A stretch of DNA of 64,000 bases from the NCBI RefSeq assembly GCF_000019165.1, contig NC_010337.2:2657501-2721500 (forward strand), in the 5' to 3' direction. Shown piece by piece: positions 42,698-57,354 of the stretch (position 1 is its first letter; each line of letters begins with the position of its first letter). A program made the position numbers and the translations under genes. This DNA is from Heliomicrobium modesticaldum Ice1. GTDB taxonomy: Bacteria; Bacillota; Desulfitobacteriia; Heliobacteriales; Heliobacteriaceae. The notes below the pieces were generated by a model, which was given only the letters and a program-made list of their open reading frames with translations, was not told the DNA's origin and searched no databases.

Positions 42698-43321
42698 CTA
42701 GGCAGGAGAAGCGGTGCTGCTGTTCCCTTCCGTTCCAAGTTGCATCAGGGAAATCCCCCATTGGCGAAGCAGCTTGTCCAACCGGACGAGCGGCAAACCG
42801 ACGACATTGAAGTAGTCCCCCTCCAGACGTTCCACCAGCAAAGCGGCCAACCCCTGGATGCCGTAAGCGCCGGCTTTGTCAAGACAGTCGCCGGTAGAAA
42901 CATAGCGGTCAATGTCCTCCTCCGTGAGGTCGCGGAAGTGGACCCGCGTCTCCTCATAGCCGCCCGTTTCATGAACGATGCGGCCCTTTTCGACATGAAA
43001 CAAGGCCAGTCCCGTGATCACCCGATGGGAACGACCGGAGAGGCGGCGGAGCATCTCCCGGGCATGATCCGGTGATTTCGGTTTGCCGAGCACATCCTCG
43101 CCGAGGACGACGATGGTGTCGGCGCCCAAGACGATCCCGTCAGACAGGCGTTCACAGACGGAAAGGGCCTTGCCGCGGGATAGCGCCAGCGCTTGCGACT
43201 CCGGCGCCAGGCCCTCGACCCCTTCTTCAGAAAAATCGCTGGGCAGGACCGAAAAAGAGATGCCCAGGTCGGACAGCAACTGGCGCCGACGAGGCGACGC
43301 TGATGCCAGCACAAGGTTCAA
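42698..43321 (-). CDS. maf: Maf-family nucleoside triphosphate pyrophosphatase
   Basis: A 207-residue Maf protein. Seen: LVLASASPRRRQLLSDLGI at the N-terminus, LSRGKALSV, GIVLGADTIVVLGEDVLGKP with the catalytic Asp, and DKAGAYGIQGLAALLVERLE near residue 150. It hydrolyses noncanonical or pyrimidine nucleotides and affects septation. Apparently TTG start after GGAGGGA. It lies 15 bp behind the DUF4321 gene. Confidence 0.95.
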   Translation of the reverse strand: MNLVLASASPRRRQLLSDLGISFSVLPSDFSEEGVEGLAPESQALALSRGKALSVCERLSDGIVLGADTIVVLGEDVLGKPKSPDHAREMLRRLSGRSHRVITGLALFHVEKGRIVHETGGYEETRVHFRDLTEEDIDRYVSTGDCLDKAGAYGIQGLAALLVERLEGDYFNVVGLPLVRLDKLLRQWGISLMQLGTEGNSSTASPA

Positions 43322-43336
43322 GAAAATCCCTCCAGG

Positions 43337-43594
43337 CTAGAATCGCCGGTAAAGGAATATGCCGGCGAGCATCCCCACAGCCCCAGCCAGGTTGAGCTTG
43401 ATGCTAAGGCCAAGGGTGAAGGTGAACGACACCAGGTTGATGTGAGCCGGTCCGAGTTCCACGTCCTTGCTCAACTTCATGACAGGGACGACAGGGATCA
43501 AGGCCTCCCCGATCAAGCTGCCGACGATGGCGCCGACGATCATAAACAGGACCAGCATACCGATTTGACCGGCGCCAACACGAATCCCCTTCAC
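43337..43594 (-). CDS. DUF4321 small membrane protein
   Basis: An 85-residue protein with two membrane segments (IGMLVLFMIVGAIVGSLIG and FTLGLSIKLNLAGAVGMLAG) and a short basic end. I recognise it as the small DUF4321-type protein found next to maf in Clostridia; the function is unknown. GTG start with AAGGGGGA upstream. A terminator-like hairpin lies only about 20 nt upstream of the start codon. Confidence 0.8.
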   Translation of the reverse strand: MKGIRVGAGQIGMLVLFMIVGAIVGSLIGEALIPVVPVMKLSKDVELGPAHINLVSFTFTLGLSIKLNLAGAVGMLAGIFLYRRF

Positions 43595-43612
43595 AGCCCG
43601 TCCCCCTTGCGC

Positions 43613-43650
43613 AATAAAAAAGGAAAGCCGGGAACACCCCCGGTATTCCC
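43613..43650 (-). terminator. Terminator or attenuator directly upstream of the DUF4321-maf-radC-mre operon
   Basis: On the minus strand GGGAATACC pairs with GGTGTTCCC (9 bp, loop GGG), followed by CTTTCCTTTTTT. It ends about 20 nt before the start codon of the DUF4321 gene. It may simply end the B12 operon transcript, but there is no room for a promoter after it, so the downstream operon either reads through or is attenuated here. Confidence 0.7.
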
Positions 43651-43916
43651 AGGTAACTCGGAAATTATTCGTCAGATACCATGAAAATCCTGCTCCCCAT
43701 ACTTTTTTCAGCTTTTTCTCATGGGCGGAAGGCGGCGGTTGTCAGTGTTCGGCTTTCGTAGCTGGTGTAAGCGACTTGAAACGAGCGTTTTTGTTTGATT
43801 ACGCGGGACTTCGCTTGTTTTGCGAGGCGTCGACATTTGATTGCATAGGCTTTTCTGGGAACCAGAAGAGGCAAATAGGGTCAATAAACGGGTTGTGGTT
43901 GGGGCTGAAAAGCGCA
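43651..43916. other. Intergenic stretch before repeat copy 2
   Basis: No gene recognised. A hairpin (CTTTTCTGG/CCAGAAGAG around 43853-43873) is visible. Any promoter for the DUF4321-maf operon should lie here, but I found no convincing -35/-10 pair. Confidence 0.4.
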
Positions 43917-44087
43917 GGGGGCGGCGGATGGCTGAGCGATTTGGGCGGAGCGGCGAAAAGCGAGCGAAGACGGCAGAGCGTAAAGGGCGCCATGGTTCAC
44001 ATGCAGAAAAGCCCAGAGGTTTGGCGCCCTGGCGGCGCCGCCGAGCGAGCCGCCGCGGAGCCCTGAGCGAAGCCATCCGCCCCCCTC
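43917..44087 (+). repeat. Copy 2 of the ~170-bp inverted-repeat element
   Basis: Ends GGCGGATGGCT / AGCCATCCGCC form an 11-bp inverted repeat. GGGCGCC and GGCGCCC flank a loop with ACATGCAGAAAAGCCCA on the plus strand. Alignment by eye with copy 1 (minus strand) holds along nearly the whole length, including GGAGCGGCG and GCCGCGGAGC blocks. Confidence 0.8.
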
Positions 44088-44113
44088 CGCCAATGCTGCA
44101 TCTAAGGAATAAA

Positions 44114-45205
44114 TCAAAAACCCAGAGCCTTCCGCCACAACGCCAGCGCCCCCTTCCGCTTCACATCCAGCACAGGAACCTTCAATCTCCGCCCCAGTCG
44201 CCCCTCCAGCACCCCGCCGGGCAGGTAACGGGGCTGGTAGGTCTGGCTTTCAGCATCGTATGCCGGGTAGAAAGGGTTCACTGTAACAGCCAGAAGAGGG
44301 ATAGACCGCCGCAGAAGCGGCATCAACCCCGATTCACGCAATTGCCGCAGCATCAGGTCGGTTTCACCGGGGTTGCCGCTGAGCAACAAGGTAACGGGAT
44401 CGCAAAAAAAGATACGCCACCCCTTCAATCGGGGGCCTGCCGTCGAGAGCAAGGAACGCATGGCGGTGGTGGTCACCAAGCGCGGCAGGGCGAGCAGACC
44501 TTCGTCTGTCTCATCGACTGTTCCACTAGCGAGAAACGCAAGGATCTGCCGCCCGAGATCGCGACCATCGTCGACCGTCAGCATTTGAGCATCAGCCAAG
44601 GGCATCTTGCGCCACTGCCCCTTATACCGGCAAGCGACGCCGCCGCCATCGGCGAAGACGGCTGTGCTGCCTTGGGGCAGCCGGAAGATCTGAGCGATGC
44701 TCTCCGTTTCGTCCGTCAGCCGACCGGGGTCCGCATGACGGGCGGCGCCTGTAGCCAGAATTACACCGTCTGTTTCGACCATAGGCGCGATCCGGTTGAG
44801 GGCACCGTCAACCATGAGCAGGTCTGGGCGATAGCAGGCGAGACGGCCTTTCACCTGCCCCACCTCGGCGGCCTTGTTCGGTCCGGCGACGACGACAAGT
44901 CCAGGAGATAGGACCTCGCCGATGATGATAGCGCCGAGAGCGCTGGGGATGTTCGTGTCTTCCAAGATGCGGATATGGGCAGTCGACGGCGGCAGACATT
45001 TGCGGGCCGTGGCGACAAGGGTTCCCGGTTCCAGGGCCAATCTCGGCTTCGGCAGGCCGGTGATGTTATCCAATTCCTCGCCGTCATAGCCGATGGAGGT
45101 GACGGCGACGCGCCGCCGCCGCCGGTAAGCCTCCCTGAGCAGCGCCGAGGCAGTCGTCGTCTTGCCGGTGTTCTTTGCCGTTCCGGCGATGCCGACCGTC
45201 TTCAT
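44114..45205 (-). CDS. P-loop NTPase of the cobalamin-mutase-like operon, function unknown
   Basis: A 363-residue protein beginning MKTVGIAGTAKNTGKTTTAS, a Walker A motif (GTAKNTGKTT). A Walker B-like LLMVDGALNRIAP lies near residue 130, and a GPNKAAEVGQVKGRL segment between. The fold resembles dethiobiotin-synthetase/CobQ-type P-loop proteins, but I cannot assign a family. Its ATG overlaps the stop of the B12-domain protein (ATGA), so the two are translated together. Inference: it could be a reactivating or cofactor-loading ATPase for that protein, as dedicated ATPases serve other adenosylcobalamin aminomutases. It is the last gene of the operon. Confidence 0.7.
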   Translation of the reverse strand: MKTVGIAGTAKNTGKTTTASALLREAYRRRRRVAVTSIGYDGEELDNITGLPKPRLALEPGTLVATARKCLPPSTAHIRILEDTNIPSALGAIIIGEVLSPGLVVVAGPNKAAEVGQVKGRLACYRPDLLMVDGALNRIAPMVETDGVILATGAARHADPGRLTDETESIAQIFRLPQGSTAVFADGGGVACRYKGQWRKMPLADAQMLTVDDGRDLGRQILAFLASGTVDETDEGLLALPRLVTTTAMRSLLSTAGPRLKGWRIFFCDPVTLLLSGNPGETDLMLRQLRESGLMPLLRRSIPLLAVTVNPFYPAYDAESQTYQPRYLPGGVLEGRLGRRLKVPVLDVKRKGALALWRKALGF

Positions 45206-47043
45206 TCTTCGGTGACGGTTCCCCGGCCAGCCCGACCCGGATAAGCCCCTTCTTCTTTGCTGCCCAGCAGACCTGCGTACAAAGCCTCCGGGAATGAGGG
45301 CGCTGCAGCCACTGCTCTTAACACCGCCTCGATCTTATCGACGATCTCCGTCGCCCACTGACTAGCTTTTTTCGTCGGCTCGACGCGGCCCTCGCCGAAG
45401 AAGCGGAACCCCTCGGCGACGGCTCGCAAGGTGTCGACGCGGGAAGCGGCGACGATGGGACCGCCGGAATAGGCCTCGTCGGAGGAGGCTATGGACACGG
45501 CGTCCACGCGTAACGAGGCTGCCAGGGCGGCGTGCAGGGAGGTGGTCATCGAGGACTGCACACGGTCCTCCGTCTGGGTCAAAAAGCCGATAGGCGCCCC
45601 CGGCCAGATGGGGGCGTCGATGATCGCCCGCAAAGCCTCGATCTTGGCGGCGTTGAAATCGATGTAGTTGTCGCGCATCTGGCCGCTGATCATCACCTCA
45701 GGGCTGAAGGCGAAGAGCGGCTGCAACAGGGGCCGGCCGCCCAAACGGCGGGCCAAGGCAGCCACAATCAGCATGCCGGCGAAAGCCTTGTGAGCGGGAA
45801 CACCAGCCAATTCCTCATTGGTGACAACATCGAAAGGCAGGTTGTACTTGACGGCCATGCGAATGGCCTCCACCCCATCGACCGTCAGGCGGGCTGGATC
45901 GGTGCCGGCGGCCAGGGCGCCGTAAGCGATGTTGATCTTGGTCAGGTCGGCGCCGAGCTTGCCGGCTAAGACGACTGTCTCTGGCGTGTTCAGCCCCCGG
46001 TGGGCGCGCACCTGCCAGAGGGTCGACGTCTCCAAAGCCGCCTTGATCCGGGAAAGGTTTTCGGGGGTGATAACGGAGCCGTCTTCCTGGTGGGTCAAAA
46101 AGTCGCCGATGAACCCCTCCGTGCGGGCGCCCCAGGAAGGGTCAAAGTGGACGACGCCGTCAGCCCCCCAGGCTTCGCAGACCTTGATATGGGCGATATC
46201 CATAAAAGGACAGCCAGTGCCGTACTGAATGAAGACTTTGGGCTGGCCCTCCCGGTGCTGCAAAAGGCGGACGGTCATGCTTTTTTCGACTGATGTCAGG
46301 TAGTCTTCCAGGCGGGCGATCTCTTCCTTGCTCTGGCGGCGCGTTTTCGGATGCACCTCGCCTTTGCGGTAAAAAGCTTCAGCTACAGGATCGCAGAGCG
46401 CACCATAGGCGTCATTGAAATTGCTGTCGCTCTTGCCCTGCCGCCAGGCCTCCACATCCCAGGCCTCATCGCGCAGCCGCGCCCGTTTGATCCCCGGGGA
46501 GGTTTTTCCCTCAGCCCAGGCCAAAATACCGTCAACGATCCCTTCCAGCAGTCTGGCGATGGCCGGGTGTCGGTATTCGTAGCTGTAGCGGGCGGCGAGA
46601 TCTACTTTTTCTTTGCGGCTTATCTCTGCATCCGGCTTGTAGGTGCGGCCCTCAATGAAAGCCACCACCTCGTCGACCGATGTGCCGGGGCCGAAACCGG
46701 CGTCAAAGCCGAGTTCTGCCGCCAGTTCCGGTCGAATGGCCATACCGCCGACGACCAAGGTCGTCTTGTCGCGCAATCCCGCTGCGTCAGTCAAATCGAC
46801 GAAGCGAGCCAAAAGTTCGGCTACGCCATAGCCGAGGGTACGACTGACGAGCACCTGATCGGGGCTCTCCCGGCTGATGATGCTGACGATCTCCTCGGGC
46901 GGCAGATCAGGCGGCAAGAGCATCGTCTGATGGCCGGCCTCATCGAGACCGCGGCGGATCATTTTCAGGCCAATGTCATGAACGGGGTCAAGGGGAACGA
47001 GAAGCACTTTTTTCCGCTCCAGGCAGTTCGCCATCTCCTTCAC
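45202..47043 (-). CDS. Cobalamin-binding-domain protein fused to a mutase-like barrel (aminomutase-like)
   Basis: A 613-residue protein. The N-terminal ~130 residues are a B12-binding Rossmann domain: LLVPLDPVHDIGLKMIRRGL contains DxHxxG (His is the lower cobalt ligand), and TTLVVGGMAIRP corresponds to the GG segment. The rest looks like a TIM barrel: IQYGTGCPFMDIAHIKVCEA, RAHRGLNTPETVVLAGKLGA, PLFAFSPEVMISGQMRDNY, EAYSGGPIVAASRVD. Family knowledge: base-off B12 domains of this kind serve glutamate mutase, methylmalonyl-CoA mutase and lysine/ornithine aminomutases. The domain order (B12 first) and barrel sequence match none of these clearly. GTG start overlaps the upstream small gene as GTGA. 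Confidence 0.75.
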   Translation of the reverse strand: MKEMANCLERKKVLLVPLDPVHDIGLKMIRRGLDEAGHQTMLLPPDLPPEEIVSIISRESPDQVLVSRTLGYGVAELLARFVDLTDAAGLRDKTTLVVGGMAIRPELAAELGFDAGFGPGTSVDEVVAFIEGRTYKPDAEISRKEKVDLAARYSYEYRHPAIARLLEGIVDGILAWAEGKTSPGIKRARLRDEAWDVEAWRQGKSDSNFNDAYGALCDPVAEAFYRKGEVHPKTRRQSKEEIARLEDYLTSVEKSMTVRLLQHREGQPKVFIQYGTGCPFMDIAHIKVCEAWGADGVVHFDPSWGARTEGFIGDFLTHQEDGSVITPENLSRIKAALETSTLWQVRAHRGLNTPETVVLAGKLGADLTKINIAYGALAAGTDPARLTVDGVEAIRMAVKYNLPFDVVTNEELAGVPAHKAFAGMLIVAALARRLGGRPLLQPLFAFSPEVMISGQMRDNYIDFNAAKIEALRAIIDAPIWPGAPIGFLTQTEDRVQSSMTTSLHAALAASLRVDAVSIASSDEAYSGGPIVAASRVDTLRAVAEGFRFFGEGRVEPTKKASQWATEIVDKIEAVLRAVAAAPSFPEALYAGLLGSKEEGAYPGRAGRGTVTEE

Positions 47044-47288
47044 CCTTTCCCTTCCCGGTCGGTATTGCGGACCCAGGCGTAATCCTGGCCTGGACGGTAG
47101 ATGTAGGCCCGCGCTCGGACGCGCGCCCCCGGCCCGGCGAACTGAATGAACACCAGATCGACATCTTGAAAACCAAGTGCCTTCATCAAGCGGATAGTCA
47201 TCTCCTTCCCCTCGTCCTCACTTGAACAGATGAGGAAGGTCTCCAGGTCGAGGGCATCAAGCACCTGGGAGAGAACCCCTTGCGCCAA
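47040..47288 (-). CDS. Small acidic/basic protein, first gene of the B12 operon, unknown
   Basis: An 82-residue protein (LETFLICSSEDEGKEMTIRL; DVDLVFIQFAGPGARVRARA) with alternating beta-like segments. I do not recognise a family. TTG start 7 nt after AGGAGG. Its stop overlaps the start of the B12-domain gene, so it is probably a partner subunit. Confidence 0.65.
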   Translation of the reverse strand: MAQGVLSQVLDALDLETFLICSSEDEGKEMTIRLMKALGFQDVDLVFIQFAGPGARVRARAYIYRPGQDYAWVRNTDREGKG

Positions 47289-47469
47289 TTTTTTTCCTCC
47301 TTATAAAGGCCCCTGTGGTGAACCTTCTCACGCCATTTGGGATTATTTTCTCCCTTATGGGGATTTTTATTTTGCGGCCACTGCAAGAAGAGGCCGTCTA
47401 GAAAATAAGCAAATTCCCTAGCCAGCCCTTGCAAAAGCATGATTTTTTAATACAAACAGCAAAAAACTA

Positions 47470-49303
47470 GAGTCTTTTTATCGGTCTCACCGGCCCTTTT
47501 TGAGGATTTTCCTCAAAAAGGGCAGATCTCCCCCTTGCACCTTATGCGGCTTTTTTGAAAGCAACACCGCGTAAGGCACTCACCTCCAACACCATGGTTG
47601 CATTCTTATCATTTCGTAGACGGTTGAGTTTTTGAAAGTTCGCCGCTAACGCGCTGAGCCGGGCGGCATAAGCCAGATTTCGTTTTCCGATACGGCGAAC
47701 CCGGCGCAGTCCGTAACGGTTGACCAGTTCATTTTGCTTGGCTTCGATGCGGCTGCGAAGACGCATCTGTTCCTTATAGATTTTCGTTTGGGAGTGCTTT
47801 GCCGCCTCGAGCATGACACCATAGGCGTTGTGAATAAAAATCGTGCGCCGATGTTTCTTTTCTTTAAAACAGGTCGTGTAACGAGGGCAGTGCTTGCAAT
47901 CATGGTCCTTGGCGCGAAGCACGAAGTTCTTCCCATCTGCCACTTCCGAATAGGTGGTGATGACTTTTCCTCTCGGGCAGATCAGTTGTGTTTGGTCTTC
48001 GGAAACTTGAAATCCCTCGCCCGCGAGGATATCACATTTTGTCTTTGGTGAAAGTGGCGCCACTACGTCAATGCCTTTTTCCTTGAGGGTGACACGGTCA
48101 TCGCCCGCACCATAGTGGGTATCTCCAATGATCGTCGGGTTTTCTACACAATCGGTGGGAAGCTGATCCGCTAACGGCACCAGACTGGAGCCGTCATAGT
48201 CGTTGGCTTTCATGGCCTCGGCGGCGGCGATAAATCCGGAATTTCCGACTTCGACGATGGCCATCTTATACCCGCGCCATTTCGTCTTGCCCTTACAACC
48301 GAAACGGGCTTCGCTGTCTACAGCCGAAACTATCATATCTTTGACAGAACCGCCGGGGGCTATCTCAAGAGTTCCATCATCTTTCCGAATGATTCGTTCA
48401 CGGAGGATACGGCAAAGCAAAAGGGCGTAATGAATGACATCGGGCTTCTTCTTCCACGAAGCCTCCGATGACTCCACGTAGGCCAGCAGTTCGTCAGCCT
48501 CGCTGACCACTTCAACAAGCCGTTCCATTTTGGCCTTATCGTCCAGGTTATGCTCTTTCACTTCCGTCACTGTTTCCAGGTAACGTACCGCCCGAGGGGC
48601 ATGGGGGATTGCATGCCATGGAACACTGTATTGCTTCGCCAAAAGACGCACCAACAGGCGCATGGCTTGGCGGATCAGTTCGATGGTCGTGGGGGCACTG
48701 ATGGGAGCTATGACATGGGTCGTGTCCGTTATCCAAGGTTCTTTCCCTGTCAAAACGCCCAGGTAGTACATCAACCGGATAAAGCGATCGAGATAGACCT
48801 TATCAAGTTCCTTTTGGATGAGCCGTTGCCGGTGGACGCCAAAATTGGCGTGATCAATGCCCGGTTCATCGAGGGCCATTCCTAACGCAAACTTGACCTC
48901 GATGTTCACACGTGTCTGTGCTTCCATCCCCCGGTCTGTTTCGCCCAGCATTTCCTGTAACATGCAGGCCATCGTCATCTGCCGGGCCGCATGACTGGGA
49001 CGTCCGTTGTCAAGGCAATAGAGACCTGTAAAATCCTCCGGTTGTATTAATAGGGGCGCCAATTCACGAAACAGGCGAAAGACGGAATCGGCAGGCACAA
49101 GTTGGTCCCAGAGGGCTGCAAAGTCGTAAAAGCTAACTTGGGGGTCCACATCGAATCGAAACAAGGTACATCGCCTCGCTATAAACAGTCTTTGTACCTA
49201 TATCCTTCGACGCGAAGAGTCGAATTCCCTTTAAATTCCACCAATTTCCATATAAAAACGTCTTGCTTTTTGCCCTCTCTTGAGGGGGTTTTTAGACAGA
49301 CTC
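47470..49303 (-). mobile_element. IS1182-family insertion sequence
   Basis: The intact transposase gene is flanked by short, imperfect inverted ends beginning GAGTCT (left GAGTCTTTTTA, right GAGTCTGTCTA). No clear target duplication was found, so the limits are approximate. A perfect 13-bp palindrome at 47493-47523 (GCCCTTTTTGAGG...) lies inside the left end and may terminate the transposase transcript. Confidence 0.65.
47542..49164 (-). CDS. IS1182-family DDE transposase
   Basis: A 540-residue transposase. The N-terminal DUF772 part carries RPSHAARQMTMACMLQ. The central catalytic region has IVSAVDSEARFGCKGKTKWRG (first Asp), then TIIGDTHYGAGDDRV (second Asp), and the zinc-type KDHDCKHCPRYTTCF. 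The C-terminal RIEAKQNELVNRYGLRRVRR contains the Glu. The gene is full length with no frameshift, so the element may still be mobile. It sits between the B12 operon promoter region and the terminator of the PLP/FAD operon and does not visibly break a gene. Confidence 0.92.
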   Translation of the reverse strand: MFRFDVDPQVSFYDFAALWDQLVPADSVFRLFRELAPLLIQPEDFTGLYCLDNGRPSHAARQMTMACMLQEMLGETDRGMEAQTRVNIEVKFALGMALDEPGIDHANFGVHRQRLIQKELDKVYLDRFIRLMYYLGVLTGKEPWITDTTHVIAPISAPTTIELIRQAMRLLVRLLAKQYSVPWHAIPHAPRAVRYLETVTEVKEHNLDDKAKMERLVEVVSEADELLAYVESSEASWKKKPDVIHYALLLCRILRERIIRKDDGTLEIAPGGSVKDMIVSAVDSEARFGCKGKTKWRGYKMAIVEVGNSGFIAAAEAMKANDYDGSSLVPLADQLPTDCVENPTIIGDTHYGAGDDRVTLKEKGIDVVAPLSPKTKCDILAGEGFQVSEDQTQLICPRGKVITTYSEVADGKNFVLRAKDHDCKHCPRYTTCFKEKKHRRTIFIHNAYGVMLEAAKHSQTKIYKEQMRLRSRIEAKQNELVNRYGLRRVRRIGKRNLAYAARLSALAANFQKLNRLRNDKNATMVLEVSALRGVAFKKAA

Positions 49304-49309
49304 AAGAAA

Positions 49310-49352
49310 TGAAAATAAAGAGCGGTTGACGAGGTTTACCCTCTCAACCGCT
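49310..49352 (-). terminator. Terminator of the PLP/FAD/RidA operon
   Basis: AGCGGTTGA pairs with TCAACCGCT, with an inner GAGGG/CCTC pair, followed by CTTTATTTTC on the minus strand, about 60 nt after the permease stop. Confidence 0.75.
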
Positions 49353-49413
49353 TGACTCTGTTTTCATGAAACAAAGGGATAGGGCGCCGGCGAATCGCCT
49401 CTCTTGGTGGCTT

Positions 49414-50790
49414 TTACATCAACAGAATGGCGACAATCGTCGTCACGGCCAGGCCCGAGATGACAGGGATGAAGTTGCGGCGTGCCAGTTCGATCGGGTT
49501 GACGCCAGCGATAGCCGCCACGGGGATCAGCCCCCAGGGGATGATGGTGCCGCCGCCGGTCCACACGCCGGCGATCTGGCCCAAGGCAGCCAACGTGGCC
49601 ACTTTCAAGTCAGGAAGGGCAGTGCCAAAGGTGGCTGCGATGGAACCGACCAAAGGCAATGGCGAGAATCCGGAACCGTCAAGGCCGACGATCATGCCTG
49701 CCGCCAGTTCAATCACGGCCACAGCCGCTTTGTTCAGCGGAACAGTGTTGGACAGGGCCAATCCCACATCCTCCAGGAAGCCGGGCGCTCCCTTGCCTAG
49801 AATCTGCTGGGACAGTTCGCCTTTGCCGAGGAAGAAGAAGCCGCCGATGATGATCACGGGGGCGAAGATCTTGATCCCGAACATGAACCCATCCCGGACA
49901 AAATCGGTGATCTTTTCCAATGATTCTACGCCGTACTTGAGCACTGATCCGAAAGCCAGCAGCAGCGCTGCCGTCCCGCCGACGAGAGCTGTGGCATCGC
50001 CGCCTTTGAGGTCATAGGTGAGCATAGCCCAGACATCGGCGGCAAAGCCGAGAGGAACAAGGAAAGCAAAGACATAGGATAGGGTTGTGATCTCCAACTT
50101 CTGGTTTTTATTCTCGTACTGTTGCCGCTCTTTATCATGGGCTGCCCGGTTGGTCGCAATGTCCCGCCGGACGAGGATAAAGGCGATGATGGACGTGACC
50201 AGGCCCATCACCACCACCAGCGGTATGGAAGCGGAGACCACGTCTCCCGATGTGAGCCCTGCCGCCTTCGCCGTGATCGTCGGGGCACCCTGAATCACAT
50301 AGTCGCTGGACAGCGCGATCCCATGACCGAAGATATTCATGGCCATGGCCGCCCCCATGGCCGGCAGCCCCGCTCGGACAGCGATGGGCAGCATGATGCC
50401 GCCGATCAGGGCTACTGCAGGGGAAGGCCAGACGAACCAGGATACGATCAGCATAGCAAAACCGAGAATCCAGAAGGCCACGTCGGCGTTGACCATCAGC
50501 TTGGCCGCCGGCCGCATGATCAGGTAGTCGGCGCCCAATTCGGTGAGCACCTTGGACATAGCCACGATCAGCGAGATGACCACGATGATCCCGAGAAACT
50601 CGATGCCGGCGACGACGAGAGCGTTAAAAACCGCTTGGATGGCGCCACCCAATCCGCCGGTGTACATCCAGCCAATGTGCAGGATGCCGAGGATGCAGGG
50701 GATCAGCGGGTCTCGGCGCAAACCCATGACCACGATGACCACCAGCACGTAGAAAAGAAAGATCCAATGGAGCGTTGTGAGCGTAACCAT
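49414..50790 (-). CDS. Polytopic permease of the uncharacterised PLP/FAD operon
   Basis: A 458-residue membrane protein with about 12 hydrophobic segments, in two halves separated by a charged loop near residue 220 (HDKERQQYENKNQKLE). The pattern (GIIVVISLIVAMSKVLTELG; GLDGSGFSPLPLVGSIAATF; WTGGGTIIPWGLIPVAAIAG) resembles the ion-transporter group that holds GntP, CitMHS and DcuC carriers. I cannot name the substrate. ATG 50790 follows AGGAGG. It is the last gene of the operon; context suggests uptake of the amino acid or amine the operon degrades. Confidence 0.75.
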   Translation of the reverse strand: MVTLTTLHWIFLFYVLVVIVVMGLRRDPLIPCILGILHIGWMYTGGLGGAIQAVFNALVVAGIEFLGIIVVISLIVAMSKVLTELGADYLIMRPAAKLMVNADVAFWILGFAMLIVSWFVWPSPAVALIGGIMLPIAVRAGLPAMGAAMAMNIFGHGIALSSDYVIQGAPTITAKAAGLTSGDVVSASIPLVVVMGLVTSIIAFILVRRDIATNRAAHDKERQQYENKNQKLEITTLSYVFAFLVPLGFAADVWAMLTYDLKGGDATALVGGTAALLLAFGSVLKYGVESLEKITDFVRDGFMFGIKIFAPVIIIGGFFFLGKGELSQQILGKGAPGFLEDVGLALSNTVPLNKAAVAVIELAAGMIVGLDGSGFSPLPLVGSIAATFGTALPDLKVATLAALGQIAGVWTGGGTIIPWGLIPVAAIAGVNPIELARRNFIPVISGLAVTTIVAILLM

Positions 50791-50803
50791 CGGCGACCAC
50801 CTC

Positions 50804-52090
50804 CTATGAGACCGGTCGTTCCATGACACCGGTCAAGCCGGCCGCTTCCACCCGCTGCCGGATGGCGTTGACATCCGTTGAATAGAGACCTTGCTCCTTC
50901 ATCCGCTGGAAATAAACGGAGCCGGAAAAGGTGTACTTTTTGGTCAGACCTTCCTCTGTCTGCATCTGCTCGTTCACATGGGCGATGGCGTCACCGACAG
51001 CAAGGGAACGGGGCAGTTCGAGGAGCGGTTTTTGCAGCGCGAAACGGACAGCGTTATGGCCGGCCAGCGCGCCCGTGACGATGGCCTCCGTGTGACCCAC
51101 GAGGAGGCCCGCCTTTTCACCGGCGCAAAAGAGATTCTCCACATCGCCTTTGACTTTGAGGGTGTTGTCACGGGGGCACATGCCCACGTAGCGAATGGAG
51201 TTGCCGATCCCGCCGGAGTAAGGGTCTTCAAAGCGGGCGTTCTCGAATCCAGGGATGTGGCGGAGCTTGTCCAAGGGATAGTAGGGCGACATGAGCTTAG
51301 CGTGGCCCGTGTCGAGGAGGATGATGTTTTCGGCGAACTCTTTGAGGGCGTACTGCTGACAGGCTTTCTGGGAAAGGGCGTCCTCCTTGCGCAAATCCTC
51401 GGGAATGGCCACGACGGCGACGCCCCTTTTGTTGAGGGTATCGACAATGTCATCACGAATGGAATCTTTGTGCAGCTTACAGGAACCGGACATGGCGCCG
51501 AAACTGCCGTCGGCCTTTTTCCCGACGACCTCCTTCACGCCCGCTTTGCCGGCAATGGAGACACGCCCGCCAAAGGTGGGGCAACGGTAGATGCACATGA
51601 CACAGCCATTGCCATATTTGCCGCAATTGCCTTGAGGGCCGGCCGTACCGCTGGCGTCGATGAAGACATCGCCGGTGATCTCGTCGGTTTCATCGATCAC
51701 GACGCCGGTGATGCGAGAGCCCTGCATGGTGATGTCGCGCACCCGGGCCAGGGTGCGAAAGTGGATGTTGGGGTATTTGCTCAGGCGCTGGCGGACGGCC
51801 GGCTCCACCTTGGCCACGTCATAGAGGCTGGCGTGCTCGTGGCCGGGGAACGCAACGTTTTTGTGTCGCGAGACCTCATCGGTGACTTGGAAGAGATCAC
51901 CGCCGCCCATAGCCAGCATTTCCTCAGTGGCGGTGAAGCGGCCGTTGTTGCGCATGATCCCGCCGACGAGGCCGGTACCCAGGAACATATCGGTCCGTTC
52001 GAGCAGGACCACTTCAGCGCCGGCCTTCGCCGCCGCAATCGCCGCAGCGCAGCCGGCCCAGCCACCTCCGACGACGACTACCTTGGCCAT
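50804..52090 (-). CDS. FAD-dependent oxidoreductase of unknown substrate
   Basis: A 428-residue flavoprotein. The N-terminus is a Rossmann FAD motif, VVVGGGWAGCAAAIAAAKAG, with Glu of LLERTD binding ribose. The C-terminal FAD segment LFCAGEKAGLLVGHTEAIVT resembles GidA/TrmFO. A Cys-rich part, GNCGKYGNGCVMCIYRCPTF near residue 155-175, could hold an Fe-S cluster or redox cysteines; I do not know it from other FAD enzymes. ATG 52090 has GGAGGTGA upstream. It lies between the PLP enzyme gene and the permease. It is a plausible amino acid or imino acid oxidoreductase; the substrate is unknown. Confidence 0.8.
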   Translation of the reverse strand: MAKVVVVGGGWAGCAAAIAAAKAGAEVVLLERTDMFLGTGLVGGIMRNNGRFTATEEMLAMGGGDLFQVTDEVSRHKNVAFPGHEHASLYDVAKVEPAVRQRLSKYPNIHFRTLARVRDITMQGSRITGVVIDETDEITGDVFIDASGTAGPQGNCGKYGNGCVMCIYRCPTFGGRVSIAGKAGVKEVVGKKADGSFGAMSGSCKLHKDSIRDDIVDTLNKRGVAVVAIPEDLRKEDALSQKACQQYALKEFAENIILLDTGHAKLMSPYYPLDKLRHIPGFENARFEDPYSGGIGNSIRYVGMCPRDNTLKVKGDVENLFCAGEKAGLLVGHTEAIVTGALAGHNAVRFALQKPLLELPRSLAVGDAIAHVNEQMQTEEGLTKKYTFSGSVYFQRMKEQGLYSTDVNAIRQRVEAAGLTGVMERPVS

Positions 52091-52165
52091 GCTGGCGTCA
52101 CCTCCCTTTTCTCACCGGTGTTTCGTTTTCCGTTTTTTTCATATCGATTGTTTCTTTGCCGGTGT

Positions 52166-53635
52166 TCATCCGATCATACCGGCGTAGCGGGCGGTGATCT
52201 CCATGAGGCGAACGAGGGCGCGGACGGCGAAGCGCATGTTCTCTTCGATGATCTGACCGTCTTCGTCTGTCGTGCCCAGGCCCGGCGAGATGTAGACGTT
52301 GGCGTCATAGGCTATGGTCGGGATGACGCCCATCTGAGCCAGGCCGCTCTGCAGGATGTTGCTGCCGGCATACATGTCTTCGATAGCGAAGATGGGCAGG
52401 CCGAGGCCGCCTTCTTTCCAAGTGCCTTCGTAGTTGACCTCGACAGCCTGGGAGTTGTAAGACTTGCTGATCTTGAGACCTTTTTTGATGTTCGGGTGGA
52501 TCTTGTCGAACTCGTCGTTGACGATCCGCTCCAGGTCGTCGACAGGCTTGGTGAGGATCTCCGGCTTGTCCCGCAGCACCCGCAAGGTTTGCACTTGGCT
52601 GAGCAGGGCCTCTTTGCCGGGGTCGAAGGTGACATAGGCCGCTTTGCCGTAGGAGGCTGTCGTTCCCCAACGGTCGCCGTGCATGCCCATGGCCCGGCGG
52701 ATAGGGGTCATCACATCCTCTCGACCGATGACCAAGCCCGAGGTGGCGGCGCCGGAGGCTTTGTCCATGGCGTAGGTGATCAGATCGGCATTCACCTTGC
52801 GGGGATCGGTGCCGATGAAGGGGATGCCCCAGGCGTTGTCGATCAGGTACGGTACGTTATACTCGCGGGCCAGTTCGCCGATGCGCTTCATCAGCAAGGG
52901 CGCGCCGTCTTCGTCCTTGACGCCGTAGCCGTAACCAGGGGTGTCATAGCCGAGAGAGGCAAAGCCGGTCAAGAAGGGGGCATGCACCTCAGCGGCGAGG
53001 GCCATCTGTTCGATGGACGCCTCAGGGTCAACCTCGGTGAGCAGCGGAACGGGATGAGCTTTGATGCCATGGACCGGATACTGGGCGCCGACGAGAGGCA
53101 CGATGACCGTGTCGAGGTTGTTCTGCCGTTTGCCGTAGAAGCCAAGCTCGCCGGCGGTGGTGCCGCGGTCAGCGTAGATGTCCTTATACTTGGGCGGGAA
53201 AGGTCGCCCGTAAGCGGCCTGGTGGTGCATGTGCTTTTCATAGGGGCAGATGTAGCGGGCGCGGTAGTTATCGCCGCGACCCAGGTTGGGCGGCGTCATC
53301 AGGGTGTCAAAGCACAGCCAGAGGGCCGCTTCGCAGGTGCTCGTCGGCACCGGTTCCCACTCGTCGCCGTAGACATCCTTGACGATCTCTCGCAGTTCGT
53401 CGACGAGCTTGGCCAGCGGAATAACCTCTTTGCCGCCCTTTTCAGTCGCCTCGGCGATATCGCGGCGCAGGGGTGCCGGGCAACCTGAGATGGCGCCGGT
53501 GAGGCCAAACTTGCCGCGTAAGTTGGGCGGAATGCCGATCTCATCGGCCGCTTTCTTGGCTTCAGCGTAGATCTGGGGGATGCTGGCCTGGAGATGGCGG
53601 TACAGTTGGTACTTATATTTCAGGGTTGTCGTCAA
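52166..53635 (-). CDS. SelA-like fold-type I PLP enzyme of unknown function
   Basis: A 489-residue PLP enzyme. Seen: VPYLIDNAWGIPFIG (Asp binding the PLP nitrogen), then ADLITYAMDKASGAATSGLV with the probable Schiff-base Lys, and GDRWGTTASYGKAAYVT. The domain plan resembles SelA/SepSecS and cystathionine lyases. It is not a SelA: no tRNA-binding N-terminal region is evident and no selB or selC is near. TTG 53635 is preferred, 8 nt after AAGGAGG; ATG 53659 lies before the SD. The gene is followed by the FAD enzyme gene and preceded by RidA, suggesting that its product is an enamine/imine. Confidence 0.78.
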   Translation of the reverse strand: MTTTLKYKYQLYRHLQASIPQIYAEAKKAADEIGIPPNLRGKFGLTGAISGCPAPLRRDIAEATEKGGKEVIPLAKLVDELREIVKDVYGDEWEPVPTSTCEAALWLCFDTLMTPPNLGRGDNYRARYICPYEKHMHHQAAYGRPFPPKYKDIYADRGTTAGELGFYGKRQNNLDTVIVPLVGAQYPVHGIKAHPVPLLTEVDPEASIEQMALAAEVHAPFLTGFASLGYDTPGYGYGVKDEDGAPLLMKRIGELAREYNVPYLIDNAWGIPFIGTDPRKVNADLITYAMDKASGAATSGLVIGREDVMTPIRRAMGMHGDRWGTTASYGKAAYVTFDPGKEALLSQVQTLRVLRDKPEILTKPVDDLERIVNDEFDKIHPNIKKGLKISKSYNSQAVEVNYEGTWKEGGLGLPIFAIEDMYAGSNILQSGLAQMGVIPTIAYDANVYISPGLGTTDEDGQIIEENMRFAVRALVRLMEITARYAGMIG

Positions 53636-53751
53636 TTCCGGATCCTCCTTGTCTCTCATGGGCTTTGGCCGGAACTCAAAGGTGTAGATGGCTCACTTCG
53701 GATCCTTTCGCTGTAAGCGGTTGGGTACATGACTCATGTAGCCTACAAGCC

Positions 53752-54207
53752 TTAAACCTGGACGATCATCTCCACTTCCACAGCGGCGTCAAGGGGCAGT
53801 TCGTTCACCCCAACAGCCGAGCGGGCGTGCTGTCCTTTGTCGCCGAAGACTTGGCCCAGCAGTTCCGAGGCGCCGTTGATGACGCCGGGCTGGCCCTGAA
53901 AACCGGGTGCGCTGTTGACGAAGCCGGTCACCTTGACGATCTTTTTGACCTGATTGAGATCGCCCACCTGCCCTTTGATCACGCCAAGGCAGTTGAGGCA
54001 ACAGACCTTGGCTGCTTCATAAGCCTTTTCCGGCGTCAGGTCCTTGCCCACCTTGCCTTTGTATTTCAACTCACCGTTGACAAAGGGGATCTGCCCTGAC
54101 GTGTAGACGAAATCACCGGCCTTGACGGACGGCACGTAGGCGGCTACCGGCTTGGGCGCTTCCGGCAGCGTGAGCCCCAGCTCCTGCAGTTTCGCTTCTA
54201 CGGACAT
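53752..54207 (-). CDS. RidA-family enamine/imine deaminase
   Basis: A 151-residue YjgF/RidA protein, somewhat longer than the usual 125-130 because of an N-terminal helix (VEAKLQELGLTLPEAPKPVA). Seen: GDFVYTSGQIPFVNGEL and the C-terminal FGDKGQHARSAVGVNELPLD with the substrate-binding Arg, then VEVEMIVQV. It releases ammonia from reactive 2-aminoacrylate-type products of PLP enzymes, which fits the adjacent PLP gene. ATG 54207 follows AGGAGGTGA. Confidence 0.92.
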   Translation of the reverse strand: MSVEAKLQELGLTLPEAPKPVAAYVPSVKAGDFVYTSGQIPFVNGELKYKGKVGKDLTPEKAYEAAKVCCLNCLGVIKGQVGDLNQVKKIVKVTGFVNSAPGFQGQPGVINGASELLGQVFGDKGQHARSAVGVNELPLDAAVEVEMIVQV

Positions 54208-54448
54208 CCCTTCACCTCCTGAATGTGCGAATGGCTTGAACCTCATCATTAGTTTCACCGAGGCAGGGAAAATCATGTGCTTTTTCAGCATTTGATCAGG
54301 CGGTGAGGTGTTTGATAGGGCGGCTGAGCTTATGGTTACTTGATCTTCTAGAGGGACTTGAGTAGTCTGGTTCATTTTTCCATGTAAAGGTCATTAGAGG
54401 GCGCTAGAGATCGTGTTTTAGAGGTTCTTTTCGGAAAAGGATTTTTTC

Positions 54449-54883
54449 TTAATCGGGGCTTTTGATCAGCAGTTGCTGGCCGATCTCAGCGCCTATGGAC
54501 ACGCCCGACTGGCGCTCCTCTGATTTGATGACGATGTTGATGTGGTTGGGCATGTGGGTCTCGTCGAAACCGGCGATATGGCCGAGAAGCTTGCCTTTTA
54601 AAAAAACCGGATCGCCGGCGACGATGACGCCACCCCCCTTGACCTCGAAAAAAGCGAGATAGGCGATGCGATTGACCTGTTTCCCCGGACCGGCATCGGT
54701 CTCGTCGGTGACGATGATCTCGTGGATCTCGTCCTCAGCTAGGGCTCGTGAGATGGGTTTGATCAGTTGCAAACCCCGATTCTCAAGCTTCCCTTCCAGG
54801 ATCGCTACCAGTTCGCCGACGACATCTTTTTTCTTGGCGTAGGGGTGAACGCGGAGCATCCCTTTGGCATATGGGTCGGACAC
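54449..54883 (-). CDS. Conserved protein of unknown function, first gene of the PLP/FAD operon
   Basis: A 144-residue protein, probably of the DUF6917 type found beside RidA and PLP genes in Clostridia (recognised with moderate confidence). It has no signal or membrane segment. Features: GMLRVHPYAKKKDVVGELVA, YLAFFEVKGGGVIVAGDPVF, HMPNHINIVI. GTG 54883 has AGGGGG upstream. About 240 bp separate it from ridA, so that part of the operon may have an extra control site, though I see none. Confidence 0.6.
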   Translation of the reverse strand: MSDPYAKGMLRVHPYAKKKDVVGELVAILEGKLENRGLQLIKPISRALAEDEIHEIIVTDETDAGPGKQVNRIAYLAFFEVKGGGVIVAGDPVFLKGKLLGHIAGFDETHMPNHINIVIKSEERQSGVSIGAEIGQQLLIKSPD

Positions 54884-54906
54884 GTAGCAGGCCCCCTTTA
54901 GACGAT

Positions 54907-54921
54907 CTATCCAATGGATAG
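54907..54921. promoter_or_regulatory. Palindrome upstream of the PLP/FAD operon, candidate operator
   Basis: CTATCC-AAT-GGATAG, a perfect 6+3+6 palindrome, lies 24 nt before the GTG of the 144-aa protein gene, where the promoter should be. It does not match the Rex consensus. Regulator unknown. Confidence 0.4.
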
Positions 54922-54946
54922 TGTGGCATCTGCCGAACTATTTCAT

Positions 54947-54994
54947 GAAAAAAACCCTCGCTCATTCCACCAGTCAAGGGAATAAACGAGGGTT
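54947..54994 (-). terminator. Terminator of rex
   Basis: AACCCTCG pairs with CGAGGGTT, with an inner TATTCC/GGAAT pair, and is followed by seven Ts on the minus strand. Confidence 0.85.
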
Positions 54995-55081
54995 GCTTCT
55001 TCTCTTATAAACAGCTGATGAAAATAACCTTAGCAATAAGGATTCAAAAAGATAAGCTATGCAAAACAACAGGTTATCCGC

Positions 55082-55717
55082 TTACTGCTTCCTCCGCGAC
55101 CCAAGATGGAAGGTCAAAACCTCCAGGTTCACCGACAGGTCCACATTGCGCAGCTCAACCCTAGGCGGGAGGTTCAAGACACAAGGGGCGAAGTTCAAGA
55201 GCGCGTCCACGCCGGAGTTGACGAGGATGTCGGCCACCTCCTGGGCCACCGTGGCCGGCACGGTGATAATGCCGATGCCTACCTGCTTTTCCTTGACCGT
55301 CTGGGCCAGTTCCTCGATGGGCTGCACGGCGATGTCGTCATACTTTTTGCCGATCTTGGCCGGGTCACTGTCAAAGATCCCAACCAAGTGGAAACCGCGC
55401 TCCCCAAAGCCCCTGTACATGGCGAGGGCAGAGCCGAGATGACCGGCGCCGACGATGACCACGCGCCATTCCCGGTTCAGACGGAGGATATTCAAAATGT
55501 GGTGTTGCAGTTCGTCAACATTGTAGCCGACGCCGCGTGTGCCGAATTCCCCGAAATAGGCCAGATCCTTGCGGACATGGGCGGGACTGACTCCCACCCC
55601 CTCGGCGATCTCTCCCGAAGAAATCATTTGCACGCCCCGCTCTTCCACTTGGCTCAGATAGCGGGAATACATGGACAAGCGGATGATTGTGGCTTCGGGG
55701 ATTTTCAGGGTTTTCAC
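55082..55717 (-). CDS. rex: Redox-sensing transcriptional repressor Rex
   Basis: A 211-residue Rex. N-terminal winged helix: RLSMYSRYLSQVEERGVQMI, SSGEIAEGVGVSPAHVRKDLAYFGEFG (recognition helix). NADH-binding Rossmann domain: VVIVGAGHLGSALAMYRGF near residue 87. The C-terminal helix is domain-swapped in the dimer. It senses the NADH/NAD+ ratio and represses fermentative and respiratory genes. The pit gene ends 17 bp upstream of it, so it may be co-transcribed with pit. Confidence 0.96.
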   Translation of the reverse strand: MKTLKIPEATIIRLSMYSRYLSQVEERGVQMISSGEIAEGVGVSPAHVRKDLAYFGEFGTRGVGYNVDELQHHILNILRLNREWRVVIVGAGHLGSALAMYRGFGERGFHLVGIFDSDPAKIGKKYDDIAVQPIEELAQTVKEKQVGIGIITVPATVAQEVADILVNSGVDALLNFAPCVLNLPPRVELRNVDLSVNLEVLTFHLGSRRKQ

Positions 55718-55733
55718 GCCAAATCCCTTCCTT

Positions 55734-56732
55734 CTAGATACCGATTAACCGATGGATCGCTACGTAAAACAAGGCCGCTACGGCGGCCGACGCCGGTATC
55801 GTAAAAATCCAGGCGGTTACGATACGCTTGGCTACGACCCAACGGACGGCAGAAATGCGTTTGGCCGAGCCTACCCCCATTATACACGAAGATACAACAT
55901 GTGTGGTACTGACCGGCATGCCAAAAAGCGAAGCGCCGTAAATCACCATAGCAGAGCTGAGGTCGGCGGCAAAGCCGTTGATAGGCTCCAGTTTAACGAT
56001 GCGTCCGCCCATGGTGCGGATGATTTTCCAGCCACCGACAGCCGTGCCAAGGGCCATGGCCAGGGCGCAGGCGAAGATGGTCCACTTGGGTACTTCAAAA
56101 GTGGCGATCATGCCGGTACTGAAAAGAGCCATGGTGATGATGCCCATAGACTTCTGGGCATCGTTAGATCCATGGGAAAAGGCGGCCGCCGTCGCGGCCA
56201 GGATTTGCAGGCGCAGGTAGCGCTGATTGACCCGACCTGGCGTCTGTTTGCGCGACAACCACCAGAGGGCATTCATCATGAAAAAGCCGACGACAAGGCC
56301 GATGATCGGCGAGGCGATGAGGATGAAGACGATCTTCTTGACGCCGGCCCACTTCAAAGCGGCGAGCCCTTGTCCGGCCACAACGGCGCCGATGACGCCG
56401 CCGATCAATGCATGGGAGCTGGATGAAGGAATACCGTAATACCAGGTGAGGAGGTTCCAGAAGATAGCCCCGACCAGGGCGGCCAGAATGACCGACAGGG
56501 TGACGGCGGCCGGATTGGCAATATCGGAGCCGATGGTCTTCGCCACAGCAGTACCCGAGAGAGCGCCGACGAAGTTCATCACCGCCGCCAGCATAACGGC
56601 GTGATTCGGGGCGATGGCCCGTGTGGAGACCGATGTAGCGACGGCGTTGGCCGTATCGTGAAAGCCGTTGATATAGTCAAAAGCAAGGGCCAAAAAGACG
56701 ACGGCAAAGACGACAGCTTCAATATTAGGCAT
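55734..56732 (-). CDS. pit: PiT-family inorganic phosphate transporter
   Basis: A 332-residue membrane protein with the duplicated PiT signature: FDYINGFHDTANAVATSVST in the first half and AAFSHGSNDAQKSMGIITMA in the second. GIPSSSSHALIGG and MPVSTTHVVSSCIMG follow them. It imports metal-phosphate with protons. Start ATG 56732 overlaps the upstream DUF47 gene by 8 bp, the standard pairing. Confidence 0.95.
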   Translation of the reverse strand: MPNIEAVVFAVVFLALAFDYINGFHDTANAVATSVSTRAIAPNHAVMLAAVMNFVGALSGTAVAKTIGSDIANPAAVTLSVILAALVGAIFWNLLTWYYGIPSSSSHALIGGVIGAVVAGQGLAALKWAGVKKIVFILIASPIIGLVVGFFMMNALWWLSRKQTPGRVNQRYLRLQILAATAAAFSHGSNDAQKSMGIITMALFSTGMIATFEVPKWTIFACALAMALGTAVGGWKIIRTMGGRIVKLEPINGFAADLSSAMVIYGASLFGMPVSTTHVVSSCIMGVGSAKRISAVRWVVAKRIVTAWIFTIPASAAVAALFYVAIHRLIGI

Positions 56733-57354
56733 TCTTGAGGGCGACTCCTTTGACGATCTTGGCGACGTGCTCGCAGTTGTCAATGGCGTCTTCGACCCGT
56801 TCCCAGATCTCTTTCCACTTGATCAATTCGATGGGTTCATTGATCTCATCGAAAAGCTTCGCCATGCCGCGCCGGTAGATGCGGTCGCCGTCGCTCTCAC
56901 ACTGCTTGATACGAGCACAGGTTTCAATGATCTTCTCCTTTTCCTTGCGGATGTGGCGCATCAATTCAAAGGCGGTGACGAGCAGGCAGGTCGACTCGGC
57001 CAGCACGTTGACAAGCACGACCAGATCTTCGGAGGGTTCGCCTGTCTGATAGAGATGCATGCGTTCAATGGTTCCGTGAATGTTATCGAGGATGTCATCC
57101 AGCCGGTTGCTCAAGGTGTAGATGTCTTCTCGATCGATAGGCGTGATGAAGGTGGCGTTCAACTGGTCGGAGATGTTGGCGGTGATGTCATCACCCTCAT
57201 GTTCGACCTCGGTGATCTCGGCCATCTTGACCGAAAGGAGTTGATAATCCTTCATCAGCGATTGGAAGACGGTCGACCCGCGATGAACGATGCGGGCACT
57301 TTGTTCCAGGAGCGTGAAGAACTTGTCTTCCCGGGGCTTCAATGACAGCAGCAT
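56725..57354 (-). CDS. DUF47/PhoU-like regulator of the PiT transporter
   Basis: A 209-residue all-helical protein. Seen: MAEITEVEHEGDDITANISDQ, TFITPIDREDIYTLSNRLDD and KQCESDGDRIYRRGMAKLFD, the two metal-binding E/DxxxD-type repeats of the PhoU fold. DUF47 proteins act with PiT carriers, probably restraining uptake. It overlaps pit. Confidence 0.93.
   Translation of the reverse strand: MLLSLKPREDKFFTLLEQSARIVHRGSTVFQSLMKDYQLLSVKMAEITEVEHEGDDITANISDQLNATFITPIDREDIYTLSNRLDDILDNIHGTIERMHLYQTGEPSEDLVVLVNVLAESTCLLVTAFELMRHIRKEKEKIIETCARIKQCESDGDRIYRRGMAKLFDEINEPIELIKWKEIWERVEDAIDNCEHVAKIVKGVALKNA

Follow-up and report, generated by a model that had tools for sequence, protein, structure and literature searches.

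A gene set around a predicted adenosylcobalamin radical mutase in Heliomicrobium modesticaldum probably encodes an amino-acid pathway without a name

Introduction

In D-ornithine fermentation a radical mutase (OraSE) is followed by an amine dehydrogenase (Ord) and a cleavage enzyme dependent on pyridoxal 5'-phosphate (PLP), OrtAB, of which OrtB has another fold than fold type I; glutamate mutase, by comparison, is a radical mutase free of PLP. Here we describe a locus of Heliomicrobium modesticaldum Ice1 that shares features with these systems and, most closely, with lysine 5,6-aminomutase (KamDE) and its reactivase KamB. The locus lies in a stretch of 64,000 nucleotides (the window; NC_010337.2, positions 2,657,501 to 2,721,500) of a genome of 3,075,407 bases in a single contig, and all coordinates below are those of the window. 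A preliminary description had read five genes at 49,414-54,921, encoding a DUF6917 protein, a RidA protein, a PLP enzyme, a flavin adenine dinucleotide (FAD) oxidoreductase and a permease, as a pathway for uptake and oxidative breakdown of an amino acid or amine. We find that these genes are half of a larger, widely shared set that probably encodes an amino-acid pathway without a name so far; a pathway of this kind, with an imine step, is still the best sort of explanation, but genes at 44,114-47,288, beyond an insertion sequence (IS) element, for a predicted B12 radical mutase with a small partner protein and a reactivase had been overlooked.

The set has in common with KamDE and KamB a KamE-type B12 domain, a barrel of the KamD type with the N-terminal part present, an adjoining KamB-like ATPase and, less firmly, a piece resembling the dimer domain. 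It differs in that the B12 domain is N-terminal within the barrel protein, the dimer-domain-like piece is a separate protein of 82 amino acids, the Schiff-base lysine is missing from its known place together with the PLP phosphate loop, and an extra fold-type-I PLP enzyme and DUF6917 are present. Ornithine fermentation likewise combines a radical mutase, whose ribose glutamate aligns with one in the mutase described here, with an amine dehydrogenase and a PLP cleavage enzyme; however, the PLP enzyme of this locus is of fold type I, and either FAD enzyme plus RidA or a diaminopimelate (DAP) dehydrogenase takes the place of Ord, to which the dehydrogenase found in Ignavibacteria bears a weak likeness (34.3 bits, cut-off 400). 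Glutamate mutase resembles the predicted mutase in fold, and its ribose glutamate also lines up, whereas its domain arrangement is different and its profile gives no significant match. The FAD protein passes the PF01134 profile as MnmG and TrmFO do, yet falls far under the cut-offs for these tRNA enzymes and carries an invariant CX6CX2CX3C insert.

As the preliminary description had held, the catalytic members match no characterized pathway in the libraries searched. Among the titles and abstract openings listed by our searches of the open-access literature none describes the gene set, which is our sole basis for regarding it as not in print, and there was no paper on DUF6917 or on PLP enzyme, RidA and FAD enzyme together in Heliobacter. 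The passages of PMC7143216 and PMC9147875 that deal with mutase, cobalamin and ornithine do not mention the set, and PMC12429584 yielded no passage on six residues looked for in it.

Results

To define the set, genes neighboring the PLP gene were clustered across the best 80 of 107 confirmed PLP loci (numbered L; genomes are numbered G), many of which lie on contigs that end early, with full flanks at 48 of the 80. The genes proved to be kept together elsewhere far beyond chance. Among the 80 loci, all of which hold the PLP gene by definition, the commonest neighbors encode DUF6917 (71 loci), an 83-residue protein (S83, 68), a 607-residue B12 protein (B12M, 67) and a KamB-like ATPase (57), each commoner than the FAD enzyme (53), RidA (42) and the permease (26), so that these last three are accessory. 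Where full flanks are available, S83 and B12M are both present at 45 loci and both absent at three. Within the phylum, 299 genomes were surveyed, among them that of the window; B12M (E 1e-40 or better) is present in 28 and DUF6917 (PF21891) in 28, and matching the two lists by eye showed that they name the same genomes. PLP enzymes with at least 50% identity occur in these 28 genomes plus G050; 10 of 39 genomes with weak matches only (E 2e-6 to 1e-3, at most 34% identity) were not counted. Carriers of the PLP gene belong to several phyla and include Sporomusa, Lucifera, Tepidanaerobacter, Desulfotomaculum, Treponema, Ignavibacteria, an Atribacterium, a Sumerlaeote and Candidatus Adiutrix.

In the window, the three further members lie on the minus strand downstream of the IS element and encode S83 (47040..47288), B12M (45202..47043) and a P-loop, KamB-like mutase reactivase of 363 residues (44114..45205). 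Between the permease gene and S83 stands the IS transposase gene (DDE_Tnp_1 family; 47542..49164, minus strand), of which the genome holds at least 31 near-identical full-length copies, a lower bound from scoring 40 of the 61 initial candidates; this abundance suggests a recent expansion. H. chlorum (L003) and H. mobile (L004) have no IS transposase gene at the corresponding place, and there all eight genes are contiguous in the order DUF6917, RidA, PLP enzyme, FAD enzyme, permease, S83, B12M, KamB. Gene orders are mixed in other lineages, for example S83-B12M-DUF6917-PLP-FAD-permease-regulator-KamB at L036. Upstream of S83 we also noted an inverted-repeat-like element, GGGAGAAAATAATCCCA, conserved between the window's species (47338-47354) and H. 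mobile (L004 12234-12250).

Structural comparison placed B12M closest to the alpha subunit of lysine 5,6-aminomutase. The model of this 613-residue protein (mean predicted local distance difference test, pLDDT, 87.7) has a B12 domain at about residues 10-135 and a barrel at about 250-550, and residues 159-613 superpose on KamD with Z 31.8 over 384 residues at 3.0 Å; weaker matches were obtained with glutamate mutase (Z 25.9) and ornithine aminomutase E (Z 25.2). Profile comparison with hhalign paired the N-terminus with the B12 domain of KamE (Prob 99.1, E 4.7e-19) and the C-terminal part with the KamD barrel (Prob 68.7, E 4.6e-5), so that both the aminomutase TIM-barrel and the B12 Rossmann fold are recognizable in one chain. 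S83 paired with the dimer domain at the N-terminus of KamE (Prob 83.7, E 8.1e-6; glutamate mutase control, Prob 10.3, E 0.003), and its best match in the PDB had E 0.052. The parts of KamDE thus appear to be present in another arrangement, and sequence and model together relate B12M to lysine 5,6-aminomutase, with S83 tied to it less firmly. The window's genome gave no match to PF09043 (KamD/OraE barrel) or PF06368 (glutamate mutase epsilon), which leaves the reactivase without another mutase of these types to act on.

We then examined catalytic positions in an alignment of 56 B12M sequences (55 of 64 homologs, picked by hand, plus the window's own). The histidine of the cobalt-ligand motif DPVHD is found in 56/56, as is E523, which in a joint alignment of ten sequences per mutase family (the first plus nine random ones) falls on Glu338 of ornithine aminomutase, the ribose glutamate. 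PMC4413051 reports that Glu338 aids C-Co cleavage, and the primers given there carry a matching ITPDEGRNV context. By comparison, the site that holds PLP in the known enzymes, where the cofactor is borne by Lys144 and Lys629 and further contacts are listed in section 4.1 of PMC3958899, has been lost. The Schiff-base position, His+11, is lysine in 12/12 KamE and 10/10 OraE sequences but Leu, Met or Val in all 56 B12M, and the phosphate loop R[ST]xGQS occurs in 9/10 KamD, 10/10 OraE and none of the 56. Only the stacking tyrosine among the listed contacts is retained in the B12M profile alignment, for which the published residue numbers (Arg184, Ser238 and others) were transferred by hand to L103 numbering with an offset of one. 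Because the Schiff-base lysine and phosphate loop are gone while the cobalt histidine and ribose glutamate are kept, we predict that B12M is a radical mutase from which the known mode of PLP binding is absent.

A mutase with no recognizable PLP site might rearrange the carbon skeleton of an acidic amino acid, in the manner of glutamate mutase, while keeping an aminomutase-like shell. We consider this special case of the adenosylcobalamin-centered pathway a serious possibility, if a less than even one. Besides the missing site and the shared fold, B12M has a lysine at His+5, as ordinary mutases do, and a QVR motif in 45/56 sequences that is also seen in 14/14 glutamate mutases and 0/10 KamD, yet in 3/10 OraE as well. 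Arginines 307, 346 and 349 are all invariant in B12M, and the first two lie no more than a few alignment columns from arginines of glutamate mutase; that alignment is loose, however. The match of B12M to the glutamate mutase profile is not significant (hhalign E 0.11).

It is rather unlikely, by comparison, that B12M is still a PLP-dependent aminomutase holding the cofactor in its barrel through K369, with the separate PLP enzyme catalyzing an ordinary later step. The nearest structure is KamD, and both K369 and Y374, which aligns with the PLP-stacking Tyr263, are invariant in 56/56; against this, the known lysine and phosphate loop are missing throughout, and Arg349 replaces the serine that contacts the pyridine nitrogen.

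The two most constant members in the upstream half are the PLP enzyme and the DUF6917 protein. The PLP gene (52166..53635, minus strand) encodes 489 residues from a TTG at 53635 (longest open reading frame, ORF, from 53659). Its model (pLDDT 88.9) has fold type I, and alignment to solved relatives assigned the Schiff-base Lys300 and pyridine-nitrogen Asp274 (longest-ORF numbering), both present in 64/64 sequences (63 of 80 homologs, picked by hand, plus the window's own). The enzyme had been called SelA-like, which holds at the level of fold, since SelA is among the best Foldseek matches together with SepCysS, Cap15 and PucG; it does not hold at the level of family, for the SelA/DgaE curated score is far off (selA_rel, 18.7 of 385.3), both Pfam scores lie under their cut-offs (Aminotran_5, 18.1 of 21.5; SelA, 11.3 of 22.8), and in VIA-align threonine aldolase, PhnW, serine hydroxymethyltransferase and γ-aminobutyrate transaminase tie at Z 22-23. 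DUF6917 (54449..54883, minus strand; 144 residues; PF21891 161.5 bits, cut-off 27) showed no likeness to OrtA in profile comparison alone (hhalign Prob 0.8), and against the PDB it gave one repeat protein (E 5.3e-6, no stretch passing alone) and otherwise matches at chance level.

Relatives of the PLP gene were also seen in other settings. In G050, of the same family, every other member of the set is gone and the gene stands alone at the same chromosomal place (L146, 7051-8562), flanked by genes labeled by eye as pit-like and maf/radC/mreB-like. At L141 and L142, divergent paralogs (50-56% identity) sit among genes resembling short-chain dehydrogenase/reductase, creatinase, MmgE/PrpD and a second PLP enzyme (labels by eye), surroundings that suggest a wider catabolic PLP family. 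The DUF6917-PLP pair at L063 and L081 is accompanied by a different RidA, a regulator that by eye resembles YheO, and genes for TAXI or tricarboxylate receptors. B12M is absent from the stretch examined at these loci, and at L063 the pair directly follows lysine biosynthesis genes.

The preliminary description had pointed to a reactive enamine or imine intermediate on the strength of the PLP enzyme and RidA. An imine step remains part of the best reading, and its source is more likely the FAD step than the PLP step because RidA tracks the FAD enzyme: both genes are present at 37 of the 80 loci, RidA alone at 5, FAD alone at 16 and neither at 22 (26, 3, 10 and 9 of the 48 with full flanks). Fisher values for the locus counts take related loci as independent and are descriptive only. 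The FAD oxidoreductase (50804..52090, minus strand) belongs to the MnmG/TrmFO clan (PF01134 133.9 bits, cut-off 22.1) but reaches neither of the two tRNA-enzyme equivalog cut-offs (49.4 of 524.85; 35.7 of 428.65). The Cys-rich insert that had been pointed out is real: its cysteines C156, C163, C166 and C170, together with C204, C244 and C322, are invariant in 52/52 aligned homologs, and from its motif the insert is probably an Fe-S site. RidA (53752..54207, minus strand; 151 residues), an imine/enamine hydrolase by family, scores 81 bits with PF14588 (cut-off 35) and 65.5 bits with PF01042.

A second way of filling this step is suggested by seven loci, six from Ignavibacteria and one from Bacteroidetes, at which a DAP dehydrogenase gene stands directly before DUF6917 and both FAD enzyme and RidA are absent. 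The dehydrogenase of L068, the one locus scored, reaches 313.8 bits with TIGR01921 (cut-off 180.6), and an eighth case, L075, has two short ORFs that resemble its halves (by eye). We therefore infer that amine oxidation can be supplied either by FAD enzyme and RidA or by DAP dehydrogenase. At L042, L043 and L052 the set is followed by an electron-transfer protein of the dihydroorotate-dehydrogenase type (NF004470 353.6 bits at L042, cut-off 313) and, downstream of it, a second FAD paralog that is 58-61% identical to the FAD protein of the window.

The permease (49414..50790, minus strand; 458 residues) belongs to no Pfam family and had no match in the PDB. At each of the 26 loci with a homolog the FAD gene is also present, and a Pfam search on 20 permeases gave a best E of 0.0038 from single members, which we did not credit.

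The sole hint at a substrate comes from ask, hom, thrB, thrC, dapA/B or DAP dehydrogenase genes lying no more than 5 kb from the PLP gene at 14/80 loci, a raw count in which related loci are not independent. Aspartate-family matches occurred at 23 loci, of which we set aside L007 and L018 (generic aminotransferases, 30-31%) and seven lysA loci (5-6.5 kb away, mostly Tepidanaerobacteraceae). No Rfam riboswitch that could name the substrate was found at 43000-57000 of the window, and among 25 of the 80 related loci there were nine Rfam matches, none judged to lead the gene set: T-boxes at L003, L034 and L038, tRNAs at L023, L035 and L037, lysine riboswitches at L042 and L044, which by position precede lysA, and an S-adenosylmethionine riboswitch at L072 on the other strand. 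The 14 loci come from several lineages and could mean that the set makes rather than breaks down an amino acid, as a branch of aspartate-family biosynthesis. We regard this as improbable, given that the association is a raw count and that the permease, along with TAXI and tricarboxylate receptors nearby at two loci, suggests uptake.

The borders of the five-gene unit are as had been described. All five ORFs are on the minus strand and form one transcription unit between the rex terminator (54948..54994, minus strand) and an intrinsic terminator after the permease (49312..49352, minus strand), which fold 5.3 and 4.3 standard deviations below shuffles (z -5.25 and -4.34). The likely starts are shifted slightly from those of the longest ORFs (permease ATG 50790, PLP enzyme TTG 53635, RidA ATG 54207, DUF6917 GTG 54883). 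Shine-Dalgarno-like sequences precede each of them by eye, AGGAGGTGAAGGG before the RidA start among them, the weakest being that of DUF6917.

Discussion

We propose that the locus encodes an uncharacterized amino-acid pathway centered on the adenosylcobalamin radical mutase S83-B12M, a reading to which we assign a probability of roughly 0.6. Where present, the permease would bring in the substrate, which S83-B12M would rearrange through hydrogen abstraction without the internal PLP of lysine or ornithine aminomutase, while the KamB-like ATPase would swap out damaged cobalamin. The FAD/Fe-S enzyme may oxidize an amino group to an imine for hydrolysis by RidA; in Ignavibacteria the DAP-dehydrogenase-type enzyme would do both. 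The PLP enzyme with DUF6917 may cleave a bond of the amino acid or catalyze an elimination on it. By analogy, the logic would be that of ornithine fermentation, a mutase, an amine dehydrogenase and a PLP cleavage enzyme, although different enzymes would take the second and third of these parts. A more specific form of the proposal is that the rearranged aminomutase, having lost its internal PLP, belongs to a new class of adenosylcobalamin mutases for amino acids and is joined by DUF6917 and a separate PLP enzyme of fold type I in a pathway whose substrate is not known for B12 rearrangement; this we advance tentatively, at a little under even odds.

Several observations weigh against the proposal. 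The KamD barrel match, on which the pairing of barrel residues depends, is modest; the invariant Lys369 could hold PLP another way; S83 matches ornithine mutase E no better than the control (Prob 11.2, E 0.0027), yet on the corresponding domain; and the KamB-like ATPase stays below its NCBIfam cut-off (NF052386 190.5 bits of 210, E 3.7e-56), the KamB homolog of L008 reaching 206.5. Three of the 48 full-flank loci (L006, L023, L078) have no B12M nearby and G050 carries the PLP gene with neither B12M nor DUF6917, so the PLP enzyme may have a role of its own; divergent relatives of it are found in other surroundings too. A terminator also separates the two halves in the window's genome, and since H. 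mobile too has a hairpin 3' of the permease gene, two transcripts are likely in heliobacteria. That the five genes are nevertheless an ordinary amino-acid oxidation operon (FAD dehydrogenase, RidA and PLP lyase) beside unrelated B12 genes, as this separation might suggest, is very improbable in view of the identical 28 genomes holding B12M and DUF6917 and of the mixed gene orders elsewhere.

According to PMC12016533, a gene has already been deleted in Heliomicrobium modesticaldum, which makes a knockout realistic. The system spans bacteria of several phyla and gives a context to DUF6917 and to an unnamed PLP family. Because it retains the aminomutase scaffold but not the known PLP site, it provides a natural test of the part that PLP plays in B12 aminomutases. 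To our knowledge few adenosylcobalamin mutases have been described, and a further one with a pathway of its own would therefore matter.

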